Source of the DNA: an uncultured Ectothiorhodospiraceae bacterium
GTDB taxonomy: Bacteria; Pseudomonadota; Gammaproteobacteria; Nevskiales; Oceanococcaceae
Direction of reading: 5' to 3'
Assembly (NCBI GenBank): GCA_937141935.1
Contig: CAKZQS010000042.1
Coordinates: forward strand, 1-64,000
Length of the DNA stretch: 64,000 nt
Within the stretch, counting starts at the first letter, position 1. Each line of letters opens with the position of its first letter. A program made the translations under genes and the position numbers. Under the pieces are notes generated by a model, which saw nothing but the letters and a program-made list of their open reading frames with translations, ran no database searches and was not told where the DNA came from. Below are positions 4,411-63,055 of the stretch, one piece after another.

Positions 4411-6333
4411 TCAGGAGGACTTGCGAACGCGCAGGTACCACTCGCAGAGCAGGCGCACCTGCTTTTCGGTGTAGCCCTTCTCGACCATGCGGGCCACGAA
4501 GCTTTCGTGCTTGCTGGCCTCGTCGGCCGTGGCCTTGGCGTTGAAGGAGATCACCGGCAGCAGCTCCTCGGTGGAGCTGAACATCTTCTTCTCGATCACC
4601 TCGCGCAGCTTTTCGTAGCTGGTCCAGTGCGGGTTGCGGCCCTCGTTGTTGGCCCGGGCCCGCAGCACGAAGTTGACGATCTCGTTGCGGAAATCCTTGG
4701 GGTTGGCAATGCCGGCGGGCTTTTCGATCTTCTCCAGCTCCTCGTTGAGCTGCTTGCGGTCGAAGATGGCGCCGGTATCCGGGTCGCGGTAGTCCTCGTC
4801 CTGGATCCAGTAGTCGGCGAAGGTGACGTAGCGGTCGAAGATGTTCTGGCCGTACTCGGAGTAGCTCTCCAGGTAGGCGGTCTGGATCTCCTTGCCGATG
4901 AACTCGGCGTATTTATTGGCCAGGTGGCCCTTGATGTAGTCCAGCCACTGGCGCTGGGTGTCCTCGGGCAGGTGCTCACGCAGGATGCGCTGCTCGAGGA
5001 TGTACATCAGGTGCACCGGGTTGGCGGCCACCTCTTCGGGGTCGTAATTGAAGGTGGCCGAGAGCACCTTGAAGGCGAAGCGGGTGGAGGAGCCGCTCAT
5101 GCCCTCGTCGACCCCGGCAAAGTCGCGGTATTCCTGAATCGACTTGGCCGAGGGCTCGGTGTCCTTGAGGTTTTCGCCGTCGTAGACCCGCATCTTGGTC
5201 ACGATGGCCGAGTTCTCGGGCTCCTGCAGTCGGGTCAGCACGCTCCACTGCGCCAGCATGTTCAGCGTGCCGGGGGCGCAGGGCGCCTCGGCCAGCGAGC
5301 TTTGCCGCAGCAGCTTGGCGTAGATCTTCTCCTCCTCGGAGACGCGCAGGCAGTAGGGCACCTTGACGATGTAGACGCGGTCCAGGAAAGCCTCGTTGTG
5401 GCGGTTGTTGCGAAAGCTCTGCCACTCCGATTCGTTGCTGTGCGCCAGCACCACGCCCTGGAAGGGGATGGCGCCCAGGCCCTCGGTGCCCTTGTAGTTG
5501 CCTTCCTGGGTGGCCGTCAGCAGCGGATGCAGCATCTTGATCGGCGCCTTGAACATCTCCACGAACTCGAGCAGGCCCTGGTTGGCCAGGCACAGCCCGC
5601 CGGAGTAGGCATAGGCGTCGGGGTCGTGCTGCGCATGCTGCTCCAGCTTGCGGATGTCGACCTTGCCGACCAGCGCGGAGATGTCCTGGTTGTTCTCGTC
5701 GCCGGGCTCGGTCTTGGCGATGGCCACCTGGCGCAGCACGCTGGGCTGCAGGCGCACCACCTTGAACTGCGACAGATCGCCGCCGTATTCGTCCAGCCGC
5801 TTCACCGCCCAGGGCGAGGCGATGCCGCCGAGCACCCGCGCGGGGATGCCGTATTCCTCATACAGCGCCGGCCCGTCGCGCTCGGGGTGGAACAGGCCCA
5901 GCGGCGATTCGTTGATCGGCGAGCCCTGCAGCGCATAGACCGGGTGCAGCTCCATCAGGGCCTTGAGCCGCTCGGCCAGCGAGCTTTTGCCGCCGCCCAC
6001 CGGGCCCAGCAGGTACAGGATCTGCTTGCGCTCCTCCAGGCCCTGCGCGGCGTGGCGGAAGTAGGCCACGATCTGCTCGATGACATCTTCCAGCCCGTAA
6101 AACTCGGCAAAGGCCGGGTAGCGGCGGATCACGCGGTTGGAGAAGATGCGCGACAGCCGCGGCTCGTGGCGGGTGTCGACGCTTTGCGGCTCGCCGATGG
6201 CCGCCAGCATGCGTTCGGCCGGGGTGGCCCAGGCCAGCGGGTCCTCGCGGCACAGGGCGAGGTAGTCCTCCAGGGACATTTCCTCTTCCTGGCGGGACTG
6301 GAACTGTTCGCGATAGCTGGCGAGCAATGACAT
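4411..6333 (-). CDS. prkA: PrkA family serine protein kinase (YeaG-like)
   Basis: This 640-residue protein matches PrkA/YeaG in length and sequence. The start at 6333 follows a strong ribosome binding site (AAGGAG, about 8 nt upstream) and gives [12 protein letters not shown]. The N-terminal two thirds are an AAA-type PrkA domain with the Walker A motif [19 protein letters not shown] near residue 105. The C-terminal part carries the PrkA kinase-like domain. The family phosphorylates serine in cytoplasmic proteins and supports stress and stationary-phase adaptation. YeaH and SpoVR genes follow on the same strand, the usual partners. It is divergent from groES. Confidence 0.94.
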
Positions 6334-6473
6334 TGCGCGGTCTCCTTGCTTGTAGTGGCCCGGCCCGCGGCATCCCGCCGCCGGCGGTGTATGGCTATGA
6401 CAGCAGCGAGCAAGGGACGTGCCGCGCTGGCGGCAAAAAATTGGCCCCGATCGCAAAAAAAATTGCCCGGCCT

Positions 6474-6501
6474 CTTGAAAGGTCCCCCCATGTCCCCAAC
6501 C
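6474..6501 (+). promoter_or_regulatory. Candidate sigma-32 heat-shock promoter of groES-groEL
   Basis: CTTGAAA at 6474-6480 is a perfect sigma-32 -35 element, followed after 13 nt by CCCCAACCT from 6494, close to the CCCCATNT -10 consensus. It lies about 110 nt upstream of groES and ends right where the CIRCE operator begins. Confidence 0.65.
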
Positions 6502-6528
6502 TTGGCACTCGCAACCGGGGAGTGCCAA
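6502..6528 (+). promoter_or_regulatory. CIRCE operator (HrcA binding site)
   Basis: TTGGCACTC at 6502-6510 and GAGTGCCAA at 6520-6528 are perfect 9-nt inverted repeats with a 9-nt spacer, the exact CIRCE layout; the usual outer TTA/TAA is TTG/CAA here. HrcA repressor binds CIRCE in front of groESL operons. No hrcA gene lies in this window. Confidence 0.92.
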
Positions 6529-6612
6529 AGCTCGCCGGCCGTACCTGTGGTCCGCGTCGCATCGCGACGGGGGCCTTGGATGCTTTCGATTCAATCATTG
6601 GGAGATCAAACA

Positions 6613-6900
6613 ATGAGCCTGCGTCCTCTGCACGATCGCGTGATCGTCAAGCGCCTGGAAGAAGAAACGACTTCGCCCGGCGGCATCGTTATTCCGGATA
6701 CCGCGGCCGAAAAGCCCTCGCGTGGCGAGATCGTCGCTGTCGGCACCGGCAAGCAGCTCGACGACGGCAAGGTCCGCGAGCTGGCCGTGAAGGCTGGTGA
6801 CACCGTGCTCTTCGGCAAGTACTCCGGCACCGAGGTCAAGGTGGATGGCCAGGAACTGCTGGTGATGCGCGAAGACGACATCATGGCGGTCGTTGAATAA
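6613..6900 (+). CDS. groES: Co-chaperonin GroES
   Basis: This 95-residue protein is GroES: it begins [14 protein letters not shown] and carries the mobile-loop region [14 protein letters not shown] and the C-terminal strand [15 protein letters not shown]. It forms the heptameric lid of the GroEL folding chamber in the cytoplasm. A GGGAG ribosome binding site lies about 8 nt before the ATG. It is the first gene of the operon under the sigma-32-like promoter and CIRCE, with groEL downstream after an unusually long 204-nt gap. Confidence 0.98.
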
Positions 6901-58406: not shown

Positions 58407-58430
58407 ATGATCGCGTCGCCGCTGCGATGA
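58407..58430 (+). CDS. Seven-codon leader ORF
   Basis: ATG-ATC-GCG-TCG-CCG-CTG-CGA-TGA encodes MIASPLR. It is preceded by the very strong ribosome binding site AAGGGGAAGGA (58390-58400) at 6 nt. Its TGA stop overlaps the ATG of the signalling kinase gene (ATGA at 58427-58430). Its role is inferred: coupling or attenuation of kinase translation. It may also be accidental. Confidence 0.45.
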   Translation: MIASPLR

Positions 58431-61400
58431 GCGCAGACCGTCCGGTAGCGTCTGCGACACCCGCGCAAAGTGGGGCTGGGCAAGCCAGCCGCTCCCGCGA
58501 CGCCGACGCCACGGTTGACGCCGAGCGCCGCCTCTCGGCCGTCGTTTTTCTCGATATGGTCGGCTACAGCCGACTCATGCAACTTAGCGAGGAGCAGGCT
58601 GAGGCGGCCGTACTCGAACTTTGGGGCATTGCGCGGCCCGCGCTGGCCGCGCGCCAGGGCGAGGAGGTTCGCCTCTTCGGCGACGGCATGCTCGCGATTT
58701 TCGACAGCGCGCTTAACGCCGTTCGCTTTTGCCTGAAGGTGCTGCACGAGCTGGCACAGCGCAACGCACGGCCCGACGTGGGCGAAAAACTCTTCGCGCG
58801 CGCGGGCGTGCATCTGGGTGACGTTGCGCGCCGGGATGGCGAAATCTATGGCGACGGCGTCAACATCGCGGCGAGGCTGGTCGGCGTGGCACCGCCGGGA
58901 GCCGCGGTCATCAGCGCGCATGTCCACGATCAGATTCGCAACGTGCTGGAGCATCCGGTGCGCAGCCTGGGCGTCAAGCGCTTGCACAACATCGCGCTGC
59001 CGCTGGAGCTGTTCTGCCTCGCGGGCCCGGACTGCGATTCCGCTGCCATCAGCGTGGCGGCGGAAACGACCGAGGCCCAGGCACGCATCTGGCACATCGC
59101 CAATGCGCGATTCGATGAACGGCGCCGCACGCTGCGTCTGAACGGCGATGACTTCGAGCTCGAGCCTGGGGCACACGCAGTCCTCCTTGCGTTGCTGAAC
59201 AATGCCGGCGAGACCGTGACCCACGAGGAGTTGCAGGAGGCCGTCGGCGATGGCGCGGGCTCGAGCGTTGCACGGCGCATCGCTCGTCTACGTGCCGCCC
59301 TGGGAGATTCGCGTCGGCAGAAAATCGTGTCCCAGCCCGGTGTGGGGTACCGCTTGGTTGAGCCTGTTCGCGTTGAGTCGGCACCCGAGCGGTTGCTGAC
59401 GCGATTTGATTTCTCGCCCGGCGACCACCCACCTCTACGTCCGCTGTGGCGCCTCGAACGGCTCCTGGGTCGCGGGGGGCAGGGCGAGGTCTGGCTGGCC
59501 CGGCACGCCAAAACCGGCGAGCTTCGGGTGTACAAGTTCGCCTTGGATAGCGACCGGCTCGGGTCGCTCAAGCGCGAAATTACCCTTTCGCGCCTGCTCA
59601 GCCGGATCGCGGATGCGCACTATTTCATTCGCGTACTCGACTGGAATCTCGAGCGCCCGCCATTTTTTCTGGAATGCACCTACGGCGGCCACTCCCTGCC
59701 CGAATGGGTTCGCGCGCGCGGTGGATTGGCAGCCACGCCCCTGCGCGAACGCATTGCCATCGTGGCCCAGGCGGCCGAGGCGCTGGCGGCGGCGCACTCC
59801 ATCGGTGTGCTCCACAAGGACCTGAAGCCGGACAATGTTCTGATTCGCGAGACGCCGGATCAGGCGCTTGAGGTTCGGCTTGCCGACTTTGGCAGTGGCG
59901 GGCTGGTTGATGCGCGCCGTCTTGCCGAAGCCGGCATCACGGACATGGGTTTCAGCCGTTCGGCCGTGCTGGACGAGCGCACGGCGGGTACCGCTGTCTA
60001 CTGCGCCCCGGAACGCTTCGCCGGGCACCTGGCCACCGTCCAGGCCGACGTCTATGCCCTCGGCGTCATGCTGTATCAGATTGTTGTCGGCGACCTGCGC
60101 AAGCCGCTGTCTATGGGCTGGGAAGCAGAAATCGACGACGAGCTTCTGCGCGAGGACATCGCCCTTGCCGCGCATGGCGATCCCGCGATGCGGCTGGCCG
60201 ACGTGGCGGATGTCGCCCGCCGCCTGCGCACTCTGCCGGAGCGCCATGCGCAGCGCCAAGAGCGGCATGCACAGCAACGACGTGCGGCGGCCGCAGCCCT
60301 CGCCGCGCAGGAGGCGAGTCGCGAACTCGCGATGTTGCGCACGCGCAGGCGCTTCAGCGTCGCATTTACCAGCGCCTTGCTACTCGGCTTGGGGCTGGCC
60401 TTGTACCAGCAGCAACGGGCGGAGCGCGCCGCCGAGCAAGCGGTAGCCTCTGCGCGCGAGGCCCAGGCCGTGGCGGACTTTCTCGCCCAGGATTTGTTCA
60501 CGTCTGTCGGGCAAGCACCGCTGCGGTCGCTGTCGATCAGCGCGCTGCTGGAGCGCGGTATCGAGAAGCTGGGCCAGCGTCATGAGCAGCTTCCGGTCGT
60601 GGGCGCGCAGCTCTATTACTCGCTTGGCAATGCGGCGCTGGCCGTGGAGAACCTCGCGCTGGCTGGTCACGCCTATGAGGAGGCCCTGCGCAACTACGAA
60701 AACGCCGGCCAACTTGGAACTGCGGCCGCCGTGCGCGTCGCGGCTCAGCTATTGAGAATTCAGGAGGGCGAGGGTGCCAAGTTGCCTGGTCGGCTGCCAC
60801 GTTTTCAGCAGGTCTTTGCCGAGGGTATCGCCCACCTGGGCGATGGCCAGGCCGACGTGCTGGCGCTGCAGCGTCAGTTGGCCGAGGCCCAGTGGACGCT
60901 GGGCCACTGGAAGCTTGCTGCCGAGCAGATGGAGTTGGTGTGGGCCCGCGCCGACGGCGCGCGTTCTGGCGCCGCTGACGTTTTTGATGGTGTGGAGAAT
61001 CGCCTTGCTTTGTTGTGGTTGCAGCTCGGTGAGTATCCGCGTGCGGAAGCTCTATTGCGCGGGAGATTGCGGGAGGCGCGCCAAAGTGGCCTACCGACCC
61101 TTCACGTCGCTGCCTTGCAGACAACTCTCGCGAGTCTCCTGACTGAGCTTGAGCAGTTTCTCGAAGCTGAGGCACTGCTGAGCTCGTCTTTGGAAGCGCT
61201 GCGAGACTGGGTGGCCGACGATAGCAGCTTCATGGTGCAGTCCGTCCTTGTTCATCAGGCATGGCTCCGCTTGAAGCAAGGCCGCACGTCCGAGGCCGTT
61301 AACCTGTTCCGTGGAGTATTGGAGGTTTTGAATTCAGAGCCGTTGCTAGCTCGCTCGGCGGTTGCCGGCGATATTCGCAGCCGGCTGGCACTCGCGTACT

Positions 61401-61789
61401 TTGCCACTGGGGAGCGAGCGGCTGCGGAGCGTGCGCTGCGGCACGCTCTCGACATCCAGGTCGAGTCCATGGGCGAAAAGTCGCCTCAGGCGCAAATAAG
61501 TCGTTGTTGGTTGGTCGACTTTCTGTTGGAACAAGGCATGACCGCAGAGGCCGAAACCACGTTGTCCAGAGTGGACCGGCGCAGTCTGGCCGCCATTGGG
61601 CCCGATCACCCCTACAGCGCTGAACTCGCCCGCGTGACCGCGCGGCTGCGGGCGGCGCAGGGACAGCGCGAGGATGCCGCCCGCTGGATGCGCGAAGCGA
61701 TCCGCATTTATGCGCTGCGCTATGACAATGATCACAGCGCGCTGCGAAACGCGCACGCAACACTGCAAGCCTACGGGGACGGGGGATAG
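58427..61789 (+). CDS. Membrane signalling protein: cyclase, winged helix, Ser/Thr kinase and TPR
   Basis: This 1120-residue protein has five parts. Residues 36-195 are a class III nucleotide cyclase (metal Asp43 in VVFLDMVGYS and Asp86 in LFGDG; Asn146 and Arg150 in GDGVNIAARL). Residues 220-315 are an OmpR/CadC-type winged helix (GVGYRLVEP at its end). Residues 342-606 are a Ser/Thr kinase: Gly loop LLGRGGQGEVWLARH, Lys370, HKDLKPDN with Asp465, DFG with Asp487, APE. A membrane helix follows at about 642-662 and then TPR-like repeats, probably periplasmic. The cyclase has Arg82 and Glu139 at positions normally Lys and Asp. The radical SAM gene follows after 5 nt. Confidence 0.88.
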   Translation: MSADRPVASATPAQSGAGQASRSRDADATVDAERRLSAVVFLDMVGYSRLMQLSEEQAEAAVLELWGIARPALAARQGEEVRLFGDGMLAIFDSALNAVRFCLKVLHELAQRNARPDVGEKLFARAGVHLGDVARRDGEIYGDGVNIAARLVGVAPPGAAVISAHVHDQIRNVLEHPVRSLGVKRLHNIALPLELFCLAGPDCDSAAISVAAETTEAQARIWHIANARFDERRRTLRLNGDDFELEPGAHAVLLALLNNAGETVTHEELQEAVGDGAGSSVARRIARLRAALGDSRRQKIVSQPGVGYRLVEPVRVESAPERLLTRFDFSPGDHPPLRPLWRLERLLGRGGQGEVWLARHAKTGELRVYKFALDSDRLGSLKREITLSRLLSRIADAHYFIRVLDWNLERPPFFLECTYGGHSLPEWVRARGGLAATPLRERIAIVAQAAEALAAAHSIGVLHKDLKPDNVLIRETPDQALEVRLADFGSGGLVDARRLAEAGITDMGFSRSAVLDERTAGTAVYCAPERFAGHLATVQADVYALGVMLYQIVVGDLRKPLSMGWEAEIDDELLREDIALAAHGDPAMRLADVADVARRLRTLPERHAQRQERHAQQRRAAAAALAAQEASRELAMLRTRRRFSVAFTSALLLGLGLALYQQQRAERAAEQAVASAREAQAVADFLAQDLFTSVGQAPLRSLSISALLERGIEKLGQRHEQLPVVGAQLYYSLGNAALAVENLALAGHAYEEALRNYENAGQLGTAAAVRVAAQLLRIQEGEGAKLPGRLPRFQQVFAEGIAHLGDGQADVLALQRQLAEAQWTLGHWKLAAEQMELVWARADGARSGAADVFDGVENRLALLWLQLGEYPRAEALLRGRLREARQSGLPTLHVAALQTTLASLLTELEQFLEAEALLSSSLEALRDWVADDSSFMVQSVLVHQAWLRLKQGRTSEAVNLFRGVLEVLNSEPLLARSAVAGDIRSRLALAYFATGERAAAERALRHALDIQVESMGEKSPQAQISRCWLVDFLLEQGMTAEAETTLSRVDRRSLAAIGPDHPYSAELARVTARLRAAQGQREDAARWMREAIRIYALRYDNDHSALRNAHATLQAYGDGG

Positions 61790-61794
61790 ACGCC

Positions 61795-62772
61795 ATGCAA
61801 ATCGGCTTCATGCTGACGGATCGCTGCAATATCAGCTGCGACCATTGCGACGCGAGCTGTGGCCCGGATAAGACTGGCCTTTTGCCCAGTCATGCCATCC
61901 AGCGCCTGATGCGTGAAGCATCCGGCGTGCAGTCGGCCAAGCCGCTGGAGATTTGCTTCAGTGGCGGCGAGCCCTTTCTGGATTTTCCGCGGCTCGAATC
62001 GCTGGTGCGTGCGGGGCAGGAGCTCGGTGCGACCGTAACCTGTGTCAGCAACGCCTCGTGGGCGAGTAGCGACGAGAAAGGCCTACGACTCCTGGGCCGG
62101 CTGCAGCGGGCCGGGCTGAGCGCGCTCGCGGTCAGCAGCAGTGGCTTTCACCAGCAGTTCGTGCCCCGCAGCCGGGTGGAGCGTGCGCTGCGCATTGCCC
62201 ACGAGTTCGGCATCCAGGCCCACCTGAAGCTGGTGTATCGCCGTTCCGAAGAGGACTCGGAGCTGGTGGACTGGGCGCGTTCGCTGCCGAACTGTCGTTT
62301 GCAGCGGATTCCGCTGATGCCCCACGTGCGCAAAGGACTGCATCTGCCGGACAGTGAGTTTCCCGCCCGCAATCAGGGGTCGGAAGGACGGTGCCCAGGA
62401 GCCTCGCTCAGCATTCGCGAAACTGGGGAGGCTTATATGTGCTGCACCCCAGGGGCATTTACCGATTTCCATTCCTTAGGCGATGCCACCGCAGTGCCTC
62501 TGGCGGAAATTCAGCGCGGCTTCGACTACGGCAGCGTGCAGCAGATACTGCGCCAACACGGGCCCAGCTATTTTCTCGATGCGATACGTGCGACCGGGCA
62601 TGCCGATCGCCTGCGCGAGGATTACGCCGGGCCCTGCGACCTCTGCACCCATATCGCTGGCGACCCCTGTCTGGCCGGCATCGCGAGAGATGTGGCTCGG
62701 CAAGAGGCACGCGGGCAGCTGGCGAAAGTGTTCGATGCGTTGGCCAGTCCAGCGCCTGTTCCGACGGCTTGA
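61795..62772 (+). CDS. Radical SAM peptide-modifying protein with twitch/SPASM-like region
   Basis: This 325-residue protein has the radical SAM motif C11-x3-C15-x2-C18 (TDRCNISCDHC) plus Cys22, and SGGEP. The C-terminal part has C200-x10-G211-x4-C216, the first element of SPASM/twitch domains, then Cys217 and C281-x2-C284-x7-C292. Such proteins hold a second iron-sulfur cluster and modify peptides: epimerisation, thioether or carbon-carbon crosslinks. The peptide gene lies 31 nt downstream, and the signalling kinase gene 5 nt upstream. Which reaction it performs cannot be read from sequence. Confidence 0.85.
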   Translation: MQIGFMLTDRCNISCDHCDASCGPDKTGLLPSHAIQRLMREASGVQSAKPLEICFSGGEPFLDFPRLESLVRAGQELGATVTCVSNASWASSDEKGLRLLGRLQRAGLSALAVSSSGFHQQFVPRSRVERALRIAHEFGIQAHLKLVYRRSEEDSELVDWARSLPNCRLQRIPLMPHVRKGLHLPDSEFPARNQGSEGRCPGASLSIRETGEAYMCCTPGAFTDFHSLGDATAVPLAEIQRGFDYGSVQQILRQHGPSYFLDAIRATGHADRLREDYAGPCDLCTHIAGDPCLAGIARDVARQEARGQLAKVFDALASPAPVPTA

Positions 62773-62803
62773 GCCGCCGTCCGAGGCTAGAGAGGAGTAC
62801 ACC

Positions 62804-63055
62804 GTGAACGAGATTGATATCCAAAAACTGCGCAAGGCGGCCGAAGACGAAGACTTCATGCGCCACCTTCTTGCCGACCCAGAGCAGGCGGCCGCGGGCC
62901 TTGGCATTCAGCTGCCACAGGAGGCGGTCGAGAGCCTGCGACAAGCGGCGAAGGATGTGATTTATCAGAGCAAGCTGCCAGACGAGTTCGAACTCTTCGT
63001 CATTAAACCCGTGTGGCTGAGCCATCCTTCGTCCATGCCTGGCGGCGATGACTGA
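62804..63055 (+). CDS. Candidate RiPP precursor peptide, NHLP/Nif11-like leader (83 aa)
   Basis: This 83-residue peptide starts with GTG after AGAGGAG (6 nt). Residues 8-50 match a helical leader of the NHLP/Nif11 type: LRKAAEDEDFMRHLLADPEQ, then GLGIQLPQEAVESL. Residues about 52-83 would be the core, with Tyr54, Phe62, Phe65, Trp71 and PVWLSHPSSMPGGDD at the end. There is no cysteine, which excludes thioether and thiazole products. No GG or GA cleavage motif is visible between leader and core. The stop overlaps the start of the serine hydrolase gene. It is assigned by context and leader pattern, without a database search. Confidence 0.72.
   Translation: MNEIDIQKLRKAAEDEDFMRHLLADPEQAAAGLGIQLPQEAVESLRQAAKDVIYQSKLPDEFELFVIKPVWLSHPSSMPGGDD

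Follow-up and report, generated by a model that had tools for sequence, protein, structure and literature searches.

The question raised by this locus is what a radical SAM enzyme might do to the small, cysteine-free peptide encoded directly after it, and what part the adjoining genes could have. The window, that is, the whole stretch of 64,000 nucleotides that was analysed, carries the genes concerned close to its end and on the forward strand. We consider that they probably constitute a RiPP-like cluster, with a peptide bearing an NHLP-type leader, an EpeE-like epimerase, an adjoining S12 hydrolase, and a kinase-TPR protein in charge of control. The cluster seems to bring together a leader like that of the proteusins, an epimerase of epipeptide type and a putative D-peptidase, all placed behind a kinase-TPR gene, and such a pairing of leader, epimerase and hydrolase would be unusual. 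This reading is built on open reading frames, homologies, folds, conserved residues and gene neighborhoods, and the chemistry is offered as a proposal.

The precursor peptide gene (62804..63055, + strand) encodes 83 amino acids from a GTG start to a TGA stop, and a ribosome-binding site AGGAG (62793..62797, +), read directly from the sequence, lies 6 nt ahead of the GTG. The gene sits between the radical SAM gene, which ends 31 nt before it, and a serine hydrolase gene. An NHLP/Os1348-like leader would span approximately residues 3-50 and the tail approximately residues 51-83, with no cysteine in any of the 83 positions. Residues 52-83 include Tyr54, Phe62, Phe65, Trp71, four Ser and four Pro. 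The first-pass annotation had described a Cys-free reading frame with an aromatic and proline-rich core at this place, and the frame, the AGGAG site and the composition bear this out.

The N-terminal half of the peptide resembles the leaders of NHLP-clan precursors. Residues 10-50 matched the NCBIfam model NF038399 (Os1348 NHLP clan) with 33.4 bits (E 3.5e-8; curated cut-off 40), residues 3-41 matched TIGR03793 (NHLP leader) with 28.4 bits (E 1.1e-6; curated cut-off 50.9), and Pfam PF14407 gave 25.8 bits for a cut-off of 48. These matches indicate that the reading frame is more than a chance one; since the scores are significant yet all of them fall under the curated cut-offs, the peptide counts as a candidate, not a proven, member of the clan. 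The peptide was found in one of the 274 genomes of its class, namely its own, and is thus close to a singleton, so that any comparison of leader and core rests on very few relatives. Within the order, NF038399 reached E 0.001 or better in 6 of 85 genomes, that of the window included, at seven places besides the window's own, and no match in these 85 genomes exceeded the cut-off.

One well-matched partner for comparison comes from locus L015, which is a contig of 4 kb attributed to a Chloroflexi MAG. There, an Os1348 peptide that scores 45.5 bits with NF038399, above the cut-off of 40, precedes a radical SAM gene whose product is 36% identical to the window enzyme; a cyclic-nucleotide-binding gene follows the radical SAM gene, and a CHASE2/cyclase gene is located on the opposite strand. 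The alignment score of the leader halves of the window and L015 peptides was equalled by 3 of 5000 shuffles, compared with 1643 of 5000 for the tails. Related RiPP precursors are expected to share the leader and to differ in the tail, and these few data, from a single well-matched pair, are consistent with this. An alignment of homologues in search of a conserved leader and a variable core had been proposed as a check, and to this extent its outcome is favorable. In addition, an hhalign comparison of the L062-L064 peptide profile with the window/L015 pair gave an E of 4.4e-4 and a probability of 34%, in the leader region only. At L064, two related NHLP-like small ORFs (L064:3520-4002 and 6307-6840) flank one EpeE-like gene.

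The earlier suggestion that the terminal WLSHPSSMPGGDD could be a conserved tail has to be abandoned, as the L015 peptide lacks it and it was found nowhere else. A leader common to all the sister ORFs was also considered and was not demonstrated for L009-L012: 157 (L009), 482 (L010), 698 (L011) and 243 (L012) of 1000 shuffles aligned to the window peptide as well as the real small ORFs did, and the profile of the L010-L012 ORFs gave an E of 0.076 with it, that is, no detectable homology. The small ORFs of L010-L012 have a CAAxxxVxW motif in common near their C-termini, which means that the tails of that branch are conserved and contain a cysteine; these ORFs (L010:8507-8842, L011:7961-8317 and L012:8505-8843) possibly represent a different RiPP-like family.

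On the other side of the peptide gene lies a predicted membrane S12 serine hydrolase of 686 aa (PF00144; 63048..64000, +, continuing beyond the window, with codons up to contig position 65105 and the gene's end at 65108), recognized by Pfam and hydropathy. Its ATG overlaps the end of the peptide gene by 8 nt, with ATGACTGA holding both the peptide stop and this ATG, which suggests that the two genes are coupled; alternatively, the gene might start at a GTG located further in. The match to PF00144 reached 204 bits, and the motifs SxxK, YxN and HxG are invariant in four of four proteins of the family, the first two being S131xxK134 and Y233xN235 in the window protein. Hydropathy indicates an N-terminal hydrophobic (signal) segment and three C-terminal hydrophobic segments, against four helices in the predicted model, which is of low confidence (pLDDT 58). 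A PBP-related beta-lactamase (2qmi) heads the list of 69 PDB sequences matched at E 1e-10 or better. The D-acting enzymes on this list are alkaline D-peptidase, DD-carboxypeptidases and ClbP, and the others include esterases and many class C beta-lactamases. Membrane enzymes of this type frequently cleave at D-residues.

A realistic possibility, though not the one to which we incline, is that this hydrolase has nothing to do with the peptide and forms, together with a TonB-dependent receptor, a separate peptide-uptake module that merely adjoins the cluster. Of the four hydrolase loci examined, three (L083, L084 and the window contig) have the receptor gene next to the hydrolase, and at the four sister loci of the radical SAM gene no hydrolase was seen next to it. 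Against this stand the overlap of the hydrolase ATG with the peptide gene and the rarity of the gene family, which at E 1e-40 is present in 4 of 85 genomes of the order and absent from the one other member of the genus. It should be noted that this alternative concerns the hydrolase step alone and is compatible with epimerisation of the peptide. Two of the three other hydrolase loci contain a DAO-family gene: in L084 it closely matches D-arginine dehydrogenase (E 6e-90) and is accompanied by a D-aminoacylase-like gene (E 2.2e-68), and in L083 it matches PF01266 and is accompanied by genes for an M19 dipeptidase and a Rid protein. Beside the third, L085, no D-amino-acid genes were found. The genes downstream of the window hydrolase are on the opposite strand.

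The radical SAM gene (61795..62772, +) encodes an enzyme of 325 aa distantly related to EpeE/YydG, a putative peptide epimerase according to TIGR04078, the PDB entries of EpeE and Foldseek. Its residues 11-18, CNISCDHC (61825..61848, +), follow the pattern CxxxCxxC, the radical SAM cluster motif. The best NCBIfam model was TIGR04078 (YydG, radical SAM peptide epimerase), with 121.2 bits and an E of 6.1e-35, a score that falls short of the YydG equivalog (cut-off 300). The next family model, viperin-like, scored 43 bits, and none of the 24 other models listed, out of 46, exceeded that value; with the exception of the general radical SAM domain, the enzyme scores under the curated family cut-offs. 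The best sequence matches in the PDB were EpeE/YydG chains (E 1.9e-20). An AlphaFold2 model built from six relatives (pLDDT 85.2) was compared by Foldseek, and in this predicted fold the nine best matches were all EpeE chains, with TM values of 0.77-0.79, followed by viperin with 0.55.

When the EpeE residues are numbered after the mutants D210A and C223A, which appear in PDB titles, Cys217 of the window enzyme (codon 62443..62445, +) aligns with Cys223 and Ser204 with Asp210. According to excerpts of PMC5682303, Cys223 of EpeE returns a hydrogen to the C-alpha radical; the donor cysteine is printed as Cys 233 in a passage of PMC5808125. Annotated YydG proteins of Macrococcus have Glu and not Asp at the 210 position, so this position is not invariant; as the alignment stands, Ser204 is a real departure. 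The position of Cys223 is occupied by Cys in four of the six aligned enzymes, the window's included (L013 was left out of this alignment and taken into the tree). In the other two it is Ala, in L009, the nearest relative of the window enzyme (L009:6085-7113, - strand), or Gly, in L012 (L012:7504-8502, + strand). These two enzymes possibly catalyze another reaction, and their lack of the donor cysteine means that the chemistry may differ within the branch, which may hold more than one.

These observations bear on the possibility that the enzyme does not epimerise the peptide and instead forms a carbon-carbon bond, an ether or another crosslink or change on the aromatic and proline-containing core, which we regard as unlikely. 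In its favor, the core contains Tyr, two Phe and Trp, the position of Asp210 is not kept, the two close relatives devoid of the donor cysteine make the branch less than uniformly EpeE-like, and the CAAxxxVxW motif of the L010-L012 ORFs might be a different target. On the other hand, no crosslinking maturase came near EpeE/YydG (121 bits with TIGR04078 versus at most 43 with the 24 other models listed of the 46), only EpeE chains appear among the nine best structural matches, the window enzyme keeps the donor cysteine, and the gene that comes next encodes a hydrolase related to D-peptidases. Epimerisation is favored as the likely product because the enzyme is EpeE/YydG-like, in its sequence as well as in its predicted fold. 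Epimerisation and carbon-carbon or ether crosslinks had all been put forward at first as plausible radical SAM products; what stands is that a RiPP-like precursor adjoins a radical SAM enzyme and that epimerisation is the probable modification, while the crosslinks gained no positive evidence.

At E 1e-10 the radical SAM enzyme was found in 5 of 85 genomes of the order, the window's among them, and at E 1e-25 in 7 of 398 genomes in a wider draw of the phylum. In the class of the L015 genome the count was 1 of 29, and in that of G411 it was 3 of 48. From a list of 42 loci, five close ones (four already known from the order) and five distant ones (L019-L023) were inspected. In the tree, the window enzyme groups with that of Solimonas (98/94), then with the three other members of the order (96/94) and then with L015 (85/91). 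Search of viral contigs gave six loci with just weak partial matches of 177-423 nt, and among plasmids three records were matched, two of them being annotated YydG clusters.

The gene order is recurrent: in all five loci of the order a winged-helix/kinase/TPR gene is located directly before the radical SAM gene, being split over two frames in L011, and a small ORF of 83-140 aa is located directly after it. In L062, L063 and L064 the small ORFs are directly ahead of the enzyme gene. Altogether, an adjacent small ORF on the same strand was present in nine of nine strong loci (the window, L009-L012, L015 and L062-L064; the more distant enzymes of L065-L067 are not counted), as called by a simple gene picker without a control for chance ORFs.

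The gene that precedes the radical SAM gene in the window, separated from it by 5 nt, encodes a protein with class III nucleotide cyclase, winged-helix, protein kinase and TPR regions (58427..61789, +; Pfam and kinase motifs), for which the ATG at 58427 is one candidate start. Its presence directly upstream in five of five loci of the order, together with the great differences among the small ORFs of these loci, could suggest that the peptide has a regulatory or structural role as a small protein, or serves the kinase-TPR protein as a ligand modified for signalling, and is not the precursor of a natural product. We hold this to be quite unlikely, as the leader matches RiPP precursor models and the kinase family also occurs apart from such peptides: it gave 25 matches in eight genomes, of which eight in G294 and nine in G282, and the paralogues examined mostly adjoin other genes. 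For this last reason, the idea of the kinase as a RiPP-specific partner is also weakened.

Several of the repeated winged-helix/kinase/TPR genes of genome G294 (L090, L091, L094 and L095) are located beside genes for large secreted proteins. In L094 a 176-aa ORF (L094:7164-7694) lies right after the kinase-TPR gene; it begins like a leader and ends with a stretch that contains Cys, its coding score is low and no Pfam match was found for it. Cyclase and cyclic-nucleotide-binding genes recur near the clusters (window 58427-59100, L015:2-1597, L015:3486-4061 and L008:5510-6217), hinting at control by cyclic nucleotides.

Finally, it is hardly credible that the peptide ORF is open merely by chance in GC-rich DNA, for although the peptide has no close homologue and its frame stays open upstream as far as 62483, the upstream part overlaps with the radical SAM gene and shows GC1/2/3 values of 0.53/0.67/0.75 against 0.72/0.34/0.70 in the peptide, whose coding-like base pattern, ribosome-binding site and NF038399 match (E 3.5e-8) speak for a real gene.

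Among known systems, the epipeptides YydF-YydG/EpeX-EpeE of Bacillus subtilis and of Macrococcus plasmids (L076, L077) have in common with the window cluster an EpeE/YydG-type radical SAM enzyme that possesses the donor cysteine, together with a small precursor encoded beside it. In contrast, the window precursor is not YydF-like, and instead of the EpeP peptidase and the EpeAB ABC transporter there are the kinase-TPR protein and the S12 hydrolase. Since the precursor core, the peptidase and the ABC transporter are missing, the cluster, judged by its gene content, falls outside the definition of an epipeptide system. An apparent FV.K..W likeness of the core to YydF was rejected, as 1519 of 2000 shuffles were as good as its local score of 14 (reference, Macrococcus YydF). 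The proteusins, with their RRE-bearing PoyD/OspD epimerases, are comparable in the resemblance of the leader to the NHLP clan and in that a radical SAM enzyme is presumed to epimerise the core; they differ in that the window leader is shorter and below the cut-off, and in that the enzyme is EpeE-type by its best NCBIfam model and fold. To call the window peptide a proteusin would go beyond these data. The Os1348/Franean1_4349 peptides of the NHLP clan (NF038399, PF14407) share with it the match of residues 10-50 to NF038399, and the L015 peptide, which passes that cut-off, also stands beside a related radical SAM gene; the window peptide remains under the cut-offs and its tail is unlike that of L015.

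The hydrolase resembles the membrane S12 D-amino peptidases of ClbP type in its S12 motifs, its N-terminal signal segment and its predicted C-terminal membrane segments. The D-Asn pocket of ClbP is formed by Glu92, Ser188 and Asn331, according to a passage of PMC9889268; the window hydrolase differs in having Arg128 for Glu92 and Asn235 for Ser188, as placed by SxxK and YxN. All in all, the window system is best called one that would work like an epimerised RiPP, with a new combination of an EpeE-type enzyme and an NHLP-like precursor. In the literature searched we found no such system. Excerpts of PMC8326336, PMC7026026 and PMC5682303 describe EpeE-type epimerases from Firmicutes, and the present cluster suggests that these enzymes also act on NHLP-like precursors in Gram-negative bacteria. 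A review states that the enzymes of two epimerised RiPP classes are unrelated, yet the epimerised residues line up (PMC8326336); if EpeE-type enzymes act on NHLP-like precursors, the two classes would be linked.

Taken as an epimerised RiPP system, the cluster could operate as follows. The kinase-TPR protein, given its position, would regulate expression of the cluster, and in the 83-aa product a helical leader of NHLP type would precede the C-terminal core, which is free of Cys. By analogy with EpeE, the enzyme would produce a 5'-deoxyadenosyl radical and abstract the C-alpha hydrogen from at least one core residue, and Cys217 would return a hydrogen on the other face, giving a D-residue. The likeliest target region may be the hydrophobic stretch LFVIKPVWL (residues 64-72). 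The membrane-anchored S12 hydrolase, probably co-translated, would then act on the peptide with the D-residue, either by a maturation cut or by self-protective degradation; this step is the weakest one, suggested by the hydrolase's family and topology and by the D-amino-acid catabolic genes next to two of its relatives. Antibiosis as the role of the product is a guess, by analogy with the epipeptides.

A bolder and rather doubtful idea is that the EpeE-type epimerase sets the D-residue as an address label for the adjacent membrane S12 D-peptidase, in such a way that epimerisation would license maturation or self-protective destruction, as a ribosomal counterpart of the nonribosomal D-Asn prodrug logic. 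If the hydrolase acts on the product, this would be a simple two-gene system for the control of peptide processing by D-residues.

With respect to export, no exporter gene was seen next to the cluster. The C39 peptidase is the usual transporter domain that cuts NHLP leaders, and no match to it was found in the genome, whose assembly is rated 98% complete, leaving leader removal by another enzyme as a possibility. Beyond the window, at about 71.7-79.8 kb of the same contig C42 (L008:9726-17774), inspection by eye revealed secreted repeat proteins and a lipoprotein that looks CsgG-type, possibly a curli-like operon.
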